Positions 4,554-29,061 of a stretch of DNA of 43,188 nt are shown in pieces; the stretch's first letter is position 1; every line of letters begins with the position of its first letter. The translations under genes and the position numbers were made by a program. The stretch lies in assembly GCA_018432615.1 (NCBI GenBank), contig JAHDSQ010000035.1, positions 1 through 43,188 on the forward strand, given 5' to 3'. The stretch is from Clostridia bacterium (GTDB taxonomy: Bacteria > Bacillota > Peptococcia > DRI-13 > SM3-B62). A model generated the notes under the pieces. It did no database searches. It was not told the origin of the DNA and worked only from the letters and a program-made list of their open reading frames with translations.

Positions 4554-5765
4554 CTATAGCTTTGTTTTGCCGCTCTTGAAGATCTCGTATGTATCACGAG
4601 CAATCATCAACTCTTCATTGGTTGGAATCACAAGCACTCTTGTCGCAGCATCATCTGCCGATACATCCGCTTCTACGCCGCGGGTAAAATTCTTGTCTTT
4701 ATCGATTTTTACGCCTAAGTAATCCAATCCTTCACAGATTTTCAACCGCATTGAAGCCGAATTCTCTCCTAATCCTGCGGTAAAAACTATGGCATCCGCC
4801 CCGTTGAGTATCGCGGCATAAGACCCGATATATTTCTTAACAGCGTAAGCGAAACGATCCAAAGCGATCTGAGAACGCTTGTTTCCGTCCTCAACCGCGC
4901 TCTTCTCGATATCCCTGAAATCACTGCTGACCCCGGATAATCCCAGCACACCGCATTTTTTGTTAAGCATGTTATTGATTTCTTTAATCCCCCAGTTTTC
5001 CTTTTCCATCAGGTAACATATAATAGAAGGATCCAAATCCCCTGGTCTGGTGCCCATTACGATACCCTCAAGGGGAGTGAAGCCCATACTGGTATCAATA
5101 CTTTTCCCATTTTTAACCGCCGCTATGCTTGAACCGTTTCCTAAATGACAGGTAATAATTCTACTCTTGCCTTCAGTAAGCTTCAGCATTGCAGCCGCAC
5201 GCTGGGATACATATTTATGAGAGGTTCCGTGAAAACCATATTTGCGAATTTTATACTTTTGATAATACTCATAAGGAATACCATAAAGATAGGCTTCTTC
5301 GGGAATTGTTTGGTGGAAAGCGGTGTCAAAAACTCCCATCTGCTTAATTTCCGGCAGTATTTTTTGACAAGCTTTAATCCCCATAATGTTCGGAGGATTG
5401 TGCAACGGCGCAAGCTCACTATTCCTGCGCAATGACTCAACTACCTCTTCAGTGATAAGTACGGAGCCTGAAAAATCTTCCCCGCCATGAACAACGCGAT
5501 GTCCAATAGCCGAAAGTTCCTCGACGGACTTGATTGCCCCGTATTCAGGACTCGTTATGGCATTAATGACGAGAGAAATTGCTTTTTCATGATCATTTAT
5601 CTCTTCCTTAATGACATGCTTTTCCTTTCCCTTGCTGTGGTTGAGGACAGAGCCCTCAAGCCCTATTCTTTCCACAAGTCCTTTGGCTAAAACAGCTTCG
5701 TTCACCATATCGAACAGCTGATATTTTAGCGAAGAACTCCCACAATTAATAACTAAAACCTTCAA
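4554..5765 (-). CDS. ackA: Acetate kinase
   Basis: Interconverts acetyl phosphate + ADP and acetate + ATP; in fermenting or acetogenic Clostridia it makes ATP at the end of the acetate branch. The 403-aa product matches the family length. Active-site landmarks are Asn7 (INCGSSS), Arg90 (GHRVVHGG), Asp148 (VFDTAFH), His179 (GFHGTSH), HLGNGSS (207-213) and Arg240 (MGTRPGDLDP). Start is TTG at 5765 with GGGGGAAGGAATTT just upstream; no ATG fits. It has its own promoter and no obvious hairpin terminator before the serA promoter. No phosphotransacetylase gene is next to it. Confidence 0.96.
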   Translation of the reverse strand: MKVLVINCGSSSLKYQLFDMVNEAVLAKGLVERIGLEGSVLNHSKGKEKHVIKEEINDHEKAISLVINAITSPEYGAIKSVEELSAIGHRVVHGGEDFSGSVLITEEVVESLRRNSELAPLHNPPNIMGIKACQKILPEIKQMGVFDTAFHQTIPEEAYLYGIPYEYYQKYKIRKYGFHGTSHKYVSQRAAAMLKLTEGKSRIITCHLGNGSSIAAVKNGKSIDTSMGFTPLEGIVMGTRPGDLDPSIICYLMEKENWGIKEINNMLNKKCGVLGLSGVSSDFRDIEKSAVEDGNKRSQIALDRFAYAVKKYIGSYAAILNGADAIVFTAGLGENSASMRLKICEGLDYLGVKIDKDKNFTRGVEADVSADDAATRVLVIPTNEELMIARDTYEIFKSGKTKL

Positions 5766-5825: not shown

Positions 5826-5854
5826 ATGTTACACTATTCACAAACCATTGACAA
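5826..5854 (-). promoter_or_regulatory. Promoter of ackA
   Basis: Minus-strand -35 TTGTCA (5849-5854), 17-bp spacer, -10 TAACAT (5826-5831), in the 106-bp gap between gyrA and ackA. Confidence 0.6.
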
Positions 5855-17516: not shown

Positions 17517-18908
17517 ATGTATTTTGATACAATTTGTGCTATTGCAACGGCTATGGGAACAGCCGGGATCGGAATTGTGAGGATTTCCGGAAGTGAAGCC
17601 GGCGGGATAGCCGAGAAGGTTTTTAAAAGTAAAAACGGAGAGTTGTTAGCAGACAAGCCCGGTTATAGCATCACATACGGTATGGCAGTGGATGAGGAAG
17701 GGATGTTTGTGGACGAAGTACTGGCCATGACTATGTGGGCTCCTAAGAGCTATACCGGGGAGGATGTAGTTGAGTTACACTGTCACGGGGGCAGGATGAT
17801 AACAAAAAAAATACTGGAACTTGTTTTAAAAGCCGGGGCCCGCTTAGCAGAACCGGGAGAGTTCAGTAAAAGGGCTTTTTTGAACGGCAAAATAGATTTA
17901 ACAAAAGCCGAAGCAATTATCGATATTATTAATGCCAAAACAGAAACTGCTATCTATGCTGCGGGAAACAATCTTAAAGGCAGTATATATCATAGACTAA
18001 AAGAAATAAGCCGGCAGCTTATAGAGATATTGGCCTATCTGGAGGCAGATATCGACTATCCGGAAGAAGAATTATACAGATTTTCTTCTCAAGAACTGTT
18101 GGAAAGGATTCAGGAACAAAAGAATGAAATTGAAGGGCTATTAAAGACATATAAAAGTGGCAGGATTATGCGAGAAGGACTGAAAACAGCGATTATCGGC
18201 AAACCGAATGTTGGCAAATCAAGCCTTCTAAATGCTGTTTTGAACGCTGAAAGGGCCATAGTAACGGAAATTCCGGGAACAACCAGAGATATTATTGAGG
18301 AATACTATGATTTGGGAGGAATCCCGCTTGTTTTGATAGATACGGCCGGTATTCGCGAAACTAAGGATCAGATTGAAAAAATAGGGGTGGAAAAAACTCA
18401 AGAGAAGATTAAGGAAGCGGATATCATTCTTTATGTCCTTGATTTAGCCTCCGGTATTAGCCTTGAGGATTTAGAGCAAATTAAAAGGTTAAATAAAGAG
18501 AAGGTATTAGTGGTAATAAACAAAGTTGATCTGCGAGGAAGAGAAGATGGAGAAGGAAAGGAAGAAGAAATACCAAGACTCTTACCCGGATATAAACTTT
18601 TGTTTATTTCAGCAAAAGAAAAGACAGGATTATACGAACTGCAGGAGAGTATCAAGGAAAAAGTGTTTGCCGGAGATGTGGAGATTAATGACAAGCCATT
18701 ATTAGCAAACGTAAGACAAAAGGATTCATTAGAGAAGGCTTTCTTATCAATTAAAAATGCTGAAGACGCGGTTAAGGCAGGGATTCCTACAGATATGGCG
18801 GCGATAGACCTCAAACAAGCTCTCTTAAGCATTGGAGAAGTAACCGGGGAGACACTGGACGACGAGATTGTAGACAAAATATTTTCTGAGTTCTGCTTAG
18901 GGAAGTAA
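17517..18908 (+). CDS. mnmE: tRNA modification GTPase MnmE
   Basis: With MnmG installs the (carboxymethyl)aminomethyl group on U34 of tRNAs reading two-codon boxes. 463 aa. The N-terminal tetrahydrofolate-binding domain begins [20 protein letters not shown] helical domain is interrupted by a G domain with G1 [10 protein letters not shown]2 GTTRD, G3 DTAGIRE and G4 NKVD. The C-terminal motif is FCLGK, with the essential cysteine. ATG start at 17517. It is followed 13 nt later by mnmG, its functional partner. Confidence 0.97.
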
Positions 18909-23422: not shown

Positions 23423-24290
23423 AAAAGGGCTGGGAAAAGGGTTGTCGGCACTGATACCTTTGGATGCCGAGGAAATTACTAAGGATGAGCCGATTGAGGA
23501 AGTCAGGGTTGCGGACATTAAGCCTAATACATTTCAACCCCGTAGAACGTTTAACGAAGAAAAACTTCGGGAGTTGGCGGAATCAATTAAGGAACATGGG
23601 GTCCTTCAGCCAATAATCGTTAGAGCGATTGGCTCGAATAAATATGAGCTGGTGGTTGGAGAAAGAAGATTGCGAGCTTGCCAAATAATCAAAAAAGAAA
23701 CACTGCCTGCCGTGATCAAGGATTTCAGTAATCAGGAAATGATGGAAATAGCCTTAGTGGAAAACATTCAAAGACAGGATTTAAGTCCGATAGAAGAGGC
23801 CTATGCCTACAGAAAACTAATTCAGGAATTCAACTTAACTCAGGAGCAGGTAGCACAGAGACTGGCCAAAAGCAGATCGTTGATTGCCAATATGATTAGG
23901 ATATTAAATTTGCCCCAGGAAATCCTTGATATGGTGGAGGGGGGGCTTCTGACGGTTGGGCATGCGCGCCCGTTATTGGCAATAGCAGACAAAAACACAC
24001 AAGTAAGATTGGCAAAAAAAATAATTGACAATAGTTTAACAGCCAGGGATGCAGAAAACCTTACCAAAGAAGCAGCCGCAAAAGAAAACATAACAAAAGA
24101 GAAGAAAACAAGAGTAAAAGAAAAAACATCTCCCGTCATGCAAGACTTAGAATCAAAGCTGCGAGACGTTTGTCGGACAAAGGTTAGAATAAAAGAAGAA
24201 GGGAAAGGCGGAAAGATAGAAATTAATTACTATAACAACGATGACTTTGAAAGGATCATGACCTTGTTTTTTCCTGATTATACCATATGA
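23415..24290 (+). CDS. parB: Chromosome partitioning protein ParB/Spo0J
   Basis: CTP-dependent DNA clamp that loads at parS and recruits SMC/condensin to the origin. About 291 aa. The N terminus KKGLGKGLSALIP stimulates ParA ATPase. The CTP-binding region has NTFQPRRTF, GERRLRAC and ENIQRQDLSPIEEA; the helix-turn-helix has LTQEQVAQRLAKSRSLIANM. It keeps Arg in KSRS and Gly in TVGHAR, as in ParB rather than Noc. The C terminus is the dimerisation domain. I start at GTG 23415 (9 nt after GGAGG); TTG 23409 is possible. It overlaps the parA end. Confidence 0.96.
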   Translation: MNKKGLGKGLSALIPLDAEEITKDEPIEEVRVADIKPNTFQPRRTFNEEKLRELAESIKEHGVLQPIIVRAIGSNKYELVVGERRLRACQIIKKETLPAVIKDFSNQEMMEIALVENIQRQDLSPIEEAYAYRKLIQEFNLTQEQVAQRLAKSRSLIANMIRILNLPQEILDMVEGGLLTVGHARPLLAIADKNTQVRLAKKIIDNSLTARDAENLTKEAAAKENITKEKKTRVKEKTSPVMQDLESKLRDVCRTKVRIKEEGKGGKIEINYYNNDDFERIMTLFFPDYTI

Positions 24291-24449
24291 AATTTTACAC
24301 ATTTTTTTCTTGTGTAGGGCTAGCCAAAAAGGGGAAAACAAGTTATAATGGCATGTGACTAGTGGTATCAACATTTTATCTCTATATTCCGAGCATAGTA
24401 TGCTGCTTTTAATAATGCGGCCATATTGTCCTTTTATTTTTTTGTGCGC

Positions 24450-24467
24450 ATGTGAAATGTTTAACAA
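24450..24467. promoter_or_regulatory. Candidate Rex (NADH/NAD+ sensor) operator
   Basis: ATGTGAAATGTTTAACAA matches the Rex palindrome TTGTTAAnnnnTTAACAA at 12 of 14 specified positions. It lies about 60 bp upstream of the NADH-linked hydrogenase operon and overlaps its probable -35. Rex represses such fermentation and hydrogenase genes when NADH is low. Whether this genome has rex is not visible here. Confidence 0.55.
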
Positions 24468-24490
24468 AGGCTTTCTTAATCATTTATATA
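24461..24490 (+). promoter_or_regulatory. Candidate hydrogenase-operon promoter
   Basis: -35 TTAACA (24461-24466) and -10 TTATAT or TATATA (24484-24490) with 17-18 bp between. The -35 lies in the candidate Rex operator. The -35 is imperfect; a TATAAT at 24344-24349 with a weak -35 is an alternative. Confidence 0.4.
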
Positions 24491-24524
24491 CATTGTTATT
24501 AAATAGTCAAGGGGGTTGAGTTTT

Positions 24525-25040
24525 ATGAGTTGTCAATGTCAAGGCAAAACGGGGGAAAAAGAAAGCAAATGTGAAATTATTGACCGCGTTGTCGATAAAT
24601 ATCAGGGCCAAGAAGGCTCTATGATTCCCGTTTTGCACGAGGTCCAGCAGGCCATTGGTTATTTGCCTGAGGACGTCCAAGCATATGTGGCTGAAAAAAT
24701 GGGGGTACCGTTGAGTGAGGTTTACGGTGTTGTCAGCTTCTATGCGCTATTCACTACAGAGCCCATTGGTAAATACAAAATCAGCATCTGCTTGGGAACC
24801 GCTTGTTATGTCAAGGGCTCCGGTCGAATCCTGGAAGAATTTGAAAAGAAACTCGGTATTAAGGTAGGCGAAACAACAGAGGACGGTCTATTTACCCTTG
24901 AGGCCTGCCGTTGTCTGGGTGCATGCGGCTTGGCACCGGTCCTTGTTGTTAATGAAAACGTACATGGGCGGCTGAAGATTACCGATGTACCGGAGATAAT
25001 TGAAAAGTACAGAGCCATGAGCAGAGAGGAGGCGTCATAA
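24525..25040 (+). CDS. hydC: NADH-dependent [FeFe]-hydrogenase, NuoE-like subunit (HydC type)
   Basis: A 171-aa thioredoxin-fold [2Fe-2S] protein of the NuoE/HoxE/HydC family; passes electrons between the flavin subunit and the rest of the complex. The N-terminal helical part contains IPVLHEVQQAIGYLPEDVQA and VYGVVSFYALFTTEPIGKY, typical of NuoE. All four cluster ligands are visible: CLGTAC and CRCLGAC (C-x4-C and C-x3-C). Start is ATG 24525 after AAGGGGG; a TTG at 24516 would be too close to that site. The gene overlaps the next one by 1 nt (TAATG). First gene of a four-gene hydrogenase operon. Confidence 0.92.
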   Translation: MSCQCQGKTGEKESKCEIIDRVVDKYQGQEGSMIPVLHEVQQAIGYLPEDVQAYVAEKMGVPLSEVYGVVSFYALFTTEPIGKYKISICLGTACYVKGSGRILEEFEKKLGIKVGETTEDGLFTLEACRCLGACGLAPVLVVNENVHGRLKITDVPEIIEKYRAMSREEAS

Positions 25041-25405
25041 TGCGTTCCTTGGAAGAATTAAAAGCCCTGAAGGAAAAGGTGCAAAAAGCAAATGCAGTCC
25101 GTGAGGATAGGGGAGCTCCAACCGTTACCGTACACATGGGAACATGTGGCATCGCCAATGGGGCTAGAGAGGTACTCCATGCCGTGATGGAGGAGATACA
25201 GACACGCAATCTTACTGATGTTCATGTTAAACAGACGGGATGTCCCGGCTTGTGTCATATGGAACCGTTGATGACGATAACGATTCCCGGGCAAACTCCC
25301 TGTTTATATGGAAAGCTCGATCCGGCGAAGGCAAAGAAGGTAATAATCCAACATGTTGTTAATAATCAGCCTGTTGTAGAGTGGCTGGTTAACGCAGATA
25401 AATAA
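25040..25405 (+). CDS. Thioredoxin-like [2Fe-2S] ferredoxin-type subunit of the hydrogenase operon
   Basis: A 121-aa protein with the thioredoxin-like ferredoxin fold, comparable to the small accessory subunit (HydD) found in some acetogen hydrogenase operons. The second ligand pair is present as GCPGLC. The first pair is altered: where the flavin subunit next door has CTGTGC, this one reads HMGTC, so only one of the two cysteines remains. A further cysteine occurs in TPCLYG. It may carry an incomplete or no cluster and act structurally. Its ATG overlaps the upstream stop, and the flavin subunit follows after 52 nt, so it belongs to the complex by context. Confidence 0.75.
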   Translation: MRSLEELKALKEKVQKANAVREDRGAPTVTVHMGTCGIANGAREVLHAVMEEIQTRNLTDVHVKQTGCPGLCHMEPLMTITIPGQTPCLYGKLDPAKAKKVIIQHVVNNQPVVEWLVNADK

Positions 25406-27288: not shown

Positions 27289-29061
27289 ATGGAAATGGTA
27301 AATTTAACAATTGACGGTCAAGAAGTGCAGGTGCCCAAGGGTTCGACTGTCCTGGAAGCCGCACAAAAGGCCGGAATCGATATTCCCACTTTGTGTCATC
27401 TGAAAGATATTAATAAAATCGGAGCCTGCAGGGTCTGTGTAGTTGAAATTGAAAAAGCAAGAGGGCTGCAGCCTTCCTGTACTTATCCTGTAACGGAGGG
27501 GATGGTTGTCAGGACAAATACGGCGATGGTAAGGGAATCCCGCAAAGCCGTAGTTGAACTTATCCTGTCAAACCACCCTATGGAATGCTTGACCTGCAGC
27601 CGCAGTACGGATTGTGAACTGCAAGCCTTAGCAAAGAAACTTGGGATCAAGGAAATTCGTTTTCAGGGAGAGAATAGCAACTTTCCTATGGATACTTCCA
27701 ACCCGGCGATTGTTAGAGATCCGAATAAGTGTATCCTATGTCGTCGGTGTGTGGCGGTTTGTAACGAAGTACAAGGTGTTGGAGCGCTGGGACTTAACGA
27801 GAGAGGCTTTAACAGTATTGTTGCACCGGCCTTTCAACATCCCCTTTCCGAGGTCAATTGCGTTTACTGCGGACAGTGTGTCAATGTCTGTCCTGTCGGG
27901 GCATTAAAGGAAAAAGATGAAATGCAGAAGGTTTGGGATGCCATTAATGATCCCGAAAAGCATGTTGTTCTGCAAACGGCACCGGCTGTCAGAGCTGCGC
28001 TGGGGGAAGAATTCGGACTGCCGATAGGCACAATCGTTACTAAAAAGATGGTAGCGGCAATAAGGAGACTGGGAATTGACAAAATCTTTGACACTGATTT
28101 TACGGCCGACCTTACTATTATGGAAGAGGGCAATGAATTCCTGGATCGTTTGCAAAACGGCGGTAAATTACCGTTGATGACTTCTTGTAGCCCTGGCTGG
28201 GTTAAGTATTGTGAACAACATTATCCGGAGTTTTTAGATAATCTTTCTACGGCAAAATCTCCGCAGCAGATGTTTGGTGCTCTGGCTAAGACATATTATC
28301 CCGAAAAATGCGGGATAGACGCTGCGAAGATCTTCTCGGTTTCGGTAATGCCTTGCACCGCGAAGAAATATGAACGGCAGAGACCAGAAATGATGGATAG
28401 CGGCTTTGTAGACGTAGATGCCGTTTTGACAACCAGAGAACTGGCTGCAATGATTAAGGAAGCGGGGCTTGATTTCAATTCATTGCCTGAGGAAGATTAC
28501 GACCTGCCAATGGGCATCTCTACAGGAGCCGGATTGATTTTCGGAGTTACCGGAGGAGTTATGGAGGCAGCTCTGCGCACGGTTTATGAAGTTGTAACCG
28601 GCAAAACCCTTGAGAAACTTGAGTTTGTCGAAGTGCGCGGCTTGGAGGGCATTAAAGAAGCGACTGTGGATGTACCTCCGGTTGGAACTGTTAAAGTAGC
28701 TGTTGCTCACGGTCTTGGTAATGCAAAAAAACTGCTGGAAAGGATCAAAGCAGGTGAAGCAGAATACCACTTCGTGGAAATCATGGCATGCCCCGGCGGA
28801 TGTATTGGTGGCGGAGGACAGCCACGTGTCACAGGCCCTGAACGTATGAGTCTTGAGGATAACTACTTGGATTTGAGGGCTCAAGCAGTTTATAACGAGG
28901 ATAAAAGTATGAAGATGCGGAAATCTCACGAAAACCCGGCAATAAAAACATTGTACGAGGAATATTTGGTTAAGCCGTTAGGAGAAAAATCCCATCATTT
29001 GCTGCATACACACTATCAGGCGAAACCCAAATATCAGGTGTTGGCTGAGAAGGAATGTTAA
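27289..29061 (+). CDS. hydA: [FeFe]-hydrogenase catalytic subunit HydA
   Basis: Catalytic subunit (590 aa) that reduces protons or oxidises H2 at the H-cluster. Domains in order: a [2Fe-2S] domain (CHLKDINKIGACRVC, then CTYP); the His-Cys3 [4Fe-4S] motif (HPMECLTCSRSTDC); two [4Fe-4S] motifs (CILCRRC and CVYCGQCVNVC); and the H-cluster domain with L1 TSCSPGW, L2 MPCTAKKYE and L3 MACPGGCIGGGGQP. A small-subunit-like tail follows. The residue after the L1 cysteine is Ser rather than the proton-relay Cys seen in many others. With HydB and HydC it forms an NAD- and probably ferredoxin-linked complex. The maturases HydEFG are not in the window. Confidence 0.97.
   Translation: MEMVNLTIDGQEVQVPKGSTVLEAAQKAGIDIPTLCHLKDINKIGACRVCVVEIEKARGLQPSCTYPVTEGMVVRTNTAMVRESRKAVVELILSNHPMECLTCSRSTDCELQALAKKLGIKEIRFQGENSNFPMDTSNPAIVRDPNKCILCRRCVAVCNEVQGVGALGLNERGFNSIVAPAFQHPLSEVNCVYCGQCVNVCPVGALKEKDEMQKVWDAINDPEKHVVLQTAPAVRAALGEEFGLPIGTIVTKKMVAAIRRLGIDKIFDTDFTADLTIMEEGNEFLDRLQNGGKLPLMTSCSPGWVKYCEQHYPEFLDNLSTAKSPQQMFGALAKTYYPEKCGIDAAKIFSVSVMPCTAKKYERQRPEMMDSGFVDVDAVLTTRELAAMIKEAGLDFNSLPEEDYDLPMGISTGAGLIFGVTGGVMEAALRTVYEVVTGKTLEKLEFVEVRGLEGIKEATVDVPPVGTVKVAVAHGLGNAKKLLERIKAGEAEYHFVEIMACPGGCIGGGGQPRVTGPERMSLEDNYLDLRAQAVYNEDKSMKMRKSHENPAIKTLYEEYLVKPLGEKSHHLLHTHYQAKPKYQVLAEKEC

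Follow-up and report, generated by a model that had tools for sequence, protein, structure and literature searches.

A candidate Rex operator upstream of an NADH-linked [FeFe]-hydrogenase operon from an uncharacterised anaerobic lineage

Introduction

Control of Hyd operons by Rex is already known in other anaerobes, to which the genome described here adds a further case. According to excerpts of the respective reports, the Hyd operon Athe_1295-99 of Caldicellulosiruptor bescii has a Rex site that was bound in gel shift (PMC6391272), and in Clostridium thermocellum a DAP-seq peak together with a predicted Rex site lies upstream of the iron-only hydrogenase operon Clo1313_1885-81 (PMC8457756). 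For hfsABCD of Thermoanaerobacterium saccharolyticum a Rex site was predicted at -78 (PMC5886521), and in Calderihabitans maritimus Rex-like TTGTGA-N6-TCACAA motifs were described (PMC7306483). In the literature searched, a single paper combined Rex, Syntrophomonas, hydrogenase and NADH, and there Rex occurred only in the title of a reference.

We analysed a stretch of 43,188 nucleotides, referred to as the window, of the genome G000 and compared it with genomes of the same class, including the same-genus relative G001. With a probability of roughly three in four, a palindrome at 24450-24467 is predicted to be the operator of the single Rex of G000, which would repress an NADH-linked hydrogenase operon until NADH rises.

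Results

The palindrome and the hydrogenase operon

The palindrome precedes four genes on the forward strand, as follows.

24450..24467, no strand assigned: candidate Rex operator ATGTGAAATGTTTAACAA, an 18-mer spanning -75 to -58 relative to the hydC start codon and separated from the ATG by 57 nt
24510..24515, + strand: ribosome-binding site AGGGGG of hydC, by direct reading
24525..25040, + strand: hydC, NuoE-like [2Fe-2S] subunit, 171 aa, ATG at 24525
25040..25405, + strand: thioredoxin-like [2Fe-2S] ferredoxin, 121 aa
25440..27251, + strand: hydB, NuoF-like NADH/FMN subunit, 603 aa, containing GRGGAGFPTGLKW
27289..29061, + strand: hydA, [FeFe]-hydrogenase (NCBIfam group A6) containing all three H-cluster motifs

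An earlier sequence-only reading of the window had named an NADH-linked [FeFe]-hydrogenase operon here, and this was borne out by the four genes between 24525 and 29061. HydA scored 940 bits against the NCBIfam model of group A6 ('NADH-dependent'; cut-off 765), and its H-cluster motifs were TSCSPGW, MPCTAKKYE and EIMACPGGCIGGG. The operon directly follows a region (1245-24290) that resembles a replication origin, with dnaA, dnaN, a recF-like gene, gyrB and gyrA to one side and a pair of ParB/Noc-type genes with a ParA to the other.

The 12 of 14 defined positions which that reading had counted against TTGTTAAN4TTAACAA were reproduced at 24450-24467. The agreement was likewise 12 of 14 with the canonical TTGTGAAN4TTCACAA and rose to 13 of 14 with the hybrid TTGTKAAN4TTMACAA, and the form found in the clade, WTGTKAN6TMACAW, was matched without mismatch. 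The palindrome is a hybrid with one half-site each of the TTGTTAA and the TTGTGAA form. The same 18-mer was found letter for letter in G001, whose regional alignment with G000 shows 96% identity overall.

The Rex protein and the rex promoters

The rex gene on which the proposed control depends was found in one copy, on contig C8 of G000 (one PF06971 match). Its product, of 209 aa, is full length by NCBIfam (NF003993, 307.7 bits, cut-off 217) and was akin to solved Rex proteins when compared with the sequences of the structures. These relatives divide by their recognition helix into an RKDL type (3ikv, 5zz5) and an RQDL type (3wg9), and the helix of the G000 protein, SSAQVRKDLAYFG, is of the RKDL type. 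In the excerpted description of the Rex-DNA complex of S. agalactiae, two adjacent arginines of the recognition helix touch both guanines of TTGTGAA (PMC8376106). We infer that a glutamine at the second place of the helix goes with TTGTTAA operators; as G000 Rex is RKDL, the clostridial TTGTTAA matrix is probably of the wrong subtype for it. One genome contradicts such a simple helix rule, since the sole rex match of G029 is RQDL and yet a G-type site lies before its hydC.

The rex promoters of several genomes contain palindromes such as ATGTTATAATCTTCACAA with an embedded TATAAT, of the same form as those in the hydC upstream regions. The rex promoter of G000 has a weaker one, ATGTTATAATTTTCACTA. 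Judged from translations alone, two short DRTGG-like proteins, then a PHP-like and then a HATPase-like protein appear to be encoded 3' of G000 rex. In six relatives a rex-like gene lies at most about 1.3 kb from a NuoE-like gene (G005:C40, G010:C18, G011:C1, G013:C4, G017:C60 and G023:C8), a proximity that we take as a sign of linked function.

Frequency of the site and ranking by matrices

The sequence-only reading had named a background-level score as its refutation, and by pattern count the site is at background: with up to 2 mismatches TTGTTAAN4TTAACAA occurred at 26 places genome-wide compared with 33 for the reversed control. No excess was detected for TTGTGAAN4TTCACAA either (up to 2 mismatches, 19 vs 19 genome-wide), nor for exact WTGTKAN6TMACAW (5 vs 5 genome-wide). 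Within the window, TTGTTAAN4TTAACAA with up to 3 mismatches was matched 7 times, compared with 5.65 expected from shuffles. By frequency alone the match at 24450 is therefore at background level. The majority of the other genomic pattern sites that were inspected are intragenic. The top-scoring one among the other sites, TTGTGAAACAAATCACAA (G000:C3:39432-39449, L089), is conserved in G001 (G001:C57:56003-56020, L090); it overlaps the 3' end of an esterase-like gene, and an apparent thioesterase start follows after about 40 nt.

Matrices were built from sites of other genera, hand-picked from scans of the hydC and rex upstream regions. The matrix from 16 hydC sites, which is not independent of the pattern's shape because the pattern had served to find these sites, placed position 24450 first of 43,171 window positions. 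It also ranked first of 43,171 with the matrix from 8 rex-promoter sites, none of them from G000 or G001. Among 155,867 positions from further G000 stretches, 1 scored as high as 24450, a comparison that is conservative because many of these stretches had been picked for holding pattern hits. Rank 2 was taken with both matrices by a site before the acetate kinase gene.

4554..5765, - strand: ackA, acetate/propionate family kinase, 403 aa (TIGR00016, 530 bits, cut-off 293.4)
5826..5843, no strand assigned: second candidate Rex operator TTGTGAATAGTGTAACAT (minus-strand reading), 78 to 61 nt before ackA

The palindrome at 5826-5843, of the same form as that at 24450, is identical in G001. It is little kept beyond the genus, where ackA rarely has it upstream, so that ackA counts only as a candidate member of the regulon.

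Upstream regions of hydC across the class

The upstream regions of hydC could be compared in 40 of 46 genomes of the class; the remaining six, G021, G025, G027, G032, G035 and G037, had no hydC match or upstream sequence that could be used. For each genome the best match to WTGTGAAN4TTCACAW within at most 300 nt was set against 300 dinucleotide shuffles. A palindrome at shuffle p ≤ 0.05 was detected in 17 of 31 rex-positive genomes vs 0 of 9 rex-negative ones, so that the site form recurs among the relatives in step with rex (Fisher p 0.005, kinship ignored). For G000 itself none of the 300 shuffles was as good. The rex-positive genomes include G006, a 43% identical relative; when it was set aside together with G000 and G001, the site was present in 15 of 28. 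The palindrome recurs before hydC in 12 other genera at variable distance, the operator lying 55 to 251 nt upstream of the start codon among relatives.

On the hydC tree (39 rows, G006 left out) rex changes 5 times and the site 7 times. Four independent pairs could be drawn on supported branches, in which the site changed in the same direction as rex in 2.5 on average and in the opposite direction in none; with only about four such pairs the sign test cannot reach significance (median p 0.25). Fourteen of the 31 rex-positive genomes have no significant site before hydC. Nearly all of family f10 is among them, although the Rex of f10 is RKDL.

Two other promoters were used as controls. The ackA scan (30 rows; the stretches of G009 and G018 were overlong, neither significant) gave a significant palindrome in 3 of 23 rex-positive genomes. 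Upstream of hydG (25 of 26 loci scanned; G022 was without upstream sequence) the count was 1 of 21 rex-positive genomes, and hydG was rejected as a member of the regulon for showing no excess.

Promoters in front of hydC

Two promoter-like sequences were found between the origin-like region and hydC.

24321..24349, + strand: P1, promoter-like TAGCCA-17-TATAAT, 10/12, from the promoter scan
24461..24490, + strand: P2, TTAACA-18-TATATA, 9/12 by direct reading, with its -35 inside the palindrome

TTAACA, the proposed -35, lies inside the palindrome, but P2 is a weak promoter, missing from the promoter-scan output for 24250-24560, and the better P1 lies about 100-130 nt upstream, so that Rex may act as a roadblock. 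P1 was the only match of the scan in that region, where shuffles average 1.7. The arrangement [C/A]TAGC-19 nt-TATAAT recurs with equal spacing in G001, G003 and G010. Measured from the start of a perfect TATAAT, the palindrome begins after 106 nt in G000, where this is the TATAAT of P1, and after 12 to 54 nt in G005, G010, G003, G031, G033 and G029. In G002 the order is reversed and a TATAAT follows the palindrome, which fits the occlusion model. Rex at 24450 may either occlude P2 or form a roadblock some 100 nt past P1. For the leader RNA before hydC no Rfam family was detected at threshold, and its fold was no better than that of shuffles.

Maturation of the H-cluster

In G000 and G001 nothing passed the HydG cut-off, and the best matches (about 1e-14) were to a HydE-like protein that is itself below the HydE cut-off. 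HydF was likewise not detected over its cut-off in these two genomes, which are rated 100 and 99% complete. The best sub-threshold HydF match of G000 is the window gene at 17517-18908, taken to be mnmE from its place. In G005, G010, G036, G019 and G015, HydA retains the three motifs and again no HydF was found over the cut-off. The loci behind this gap are window 27289-29061 and G000:C44:18549-19010 (L287), with those of G001, G005, G010, G015, G019 and G036. A few species with such hydrogenases but without the three maturases were noted in 2011, according to an excerpt of that report (PMC3226654).

A less probable reading is that the lineage, without HydF and HydG, has kept a Rex-controlled NADH-linked [FeFe]-hydrogenase with complete H-cluster motifs, whose H-cluster, if the enzyme is active, would be assembled along a path that bypasses HydEFG. 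Under the same proviso, the retained Rex operator would be a sign that the hydrogenase is still in use.

Discussion

We infer that Rex binds the palindrome before hydC, responds there to NADH and acts as a repressor. With NAD+ bound, Rex would occupy the palindrome and lower the transcription of hydC-(2Fe-2S)-hydB-hydA. Rising NADH would cause Rex to leave the palindrome, the NADH-linked hydrogenase would be made, and surplus NADH could then be discharged as H2. The operator put forward by the sequence-only reading is supported by the rex gene, by 17/31 against 0/9 genomes and by the first rank with the matrices; its TTGTTAA subtype, the background count and a -35 overlap tied to a weak promoter speak against the form in which it was proposed.

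The palindrome could also be a chance product of AT-rich intergenic DNA, common to the two sister species only through their closeness. Such an origin would fit genome counts at or below those of the controls and the high overall identity of the G000 and G001 regions. We consider it unlikely, as no shuffle of the hydC upstream region equalled the site, matrices from other genera ranked it first and the palindrome recurs before hydC in 12 other genera. Slightly less probable still is that another dimeric regulator of the same geometry, for example of the CRP/FNR type, binds here and that the link to rex is indirect. The CRP operator TGTGA-N6-TCACA has the same geometry as the palindrome. G000 has four CRP-type HTH matches, and the variants ATGTGCA-N4-TGCACAA of G014 and G016 deviate from the Rex consensus, as such a regulator might lead one to expect. 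The presence of the site tracks rex and not the CRP-type genes, however: G036 has two strong CRP-type matches, no rex and no site, whereas G014 has rex and the site with only one weak, partial CRP-type match. That the rex promoters bear the same palindrome form also argues for Rex as the binding protein.

A reading that we regard as a serious contender, at somewhat less than even odds, leaves Rex on the palindrome and changes what it does there. Its main action would concern a second promoter or the leader, and the operon would be mostly driven by P1 and only partly repressed. P1 matches a promoter better than P2 does and keeps its spacing in three other genomes, and in six relatives the palindrome follows closely on the start of a TATAAT. 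The weight of these observations is reduced by the frequency of TATAAT in AT-rich DNA, where one match is no more than shuffles yield, and by G002 with its reversed order.

Repression by Rex at 24450-24467 until NADH rises, the reading that we prefer, would link H2 production in this uncharacterised anaerobic lineage to its NADH/NAD+ ratio. The candidate Rex regulon would be small, comprising the hydrogenase and perhaps acetate kinase. Among relatives the operator occupies varying places within the leader, and none of the nine that lack rex showed it.

In comparison with the known systems, as far as the excerpts describe them, the locus is similar to that of C. bescii in having a Rex site a short distance before an [FeFe]-hydrogenase operon. 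It belongs to another lineage, and binding was measured in C. bescii but is only predicted in G000; rex is autoregulated in C. bescii, whereas G000 has only the weaker rex-promoter site. The consensus in C. thermocellum is of the TTGTTAA type, unlike the G000 site with one half-site per form and its RKDL Rex. T. saccharolyticum resembles G000 in having, upstream of an [FeFe]-hydrogenase operon, a palindrome similarly far away (-78), but its site is a prediction only and of the TTGTTAA type. The motifs of C. maritimus differ in that they concern NiFe hydrogenases and CO-responsive genes, and share with the G000 site a G-type motif that stands before the hydrogenase clusters of an anaerobe.
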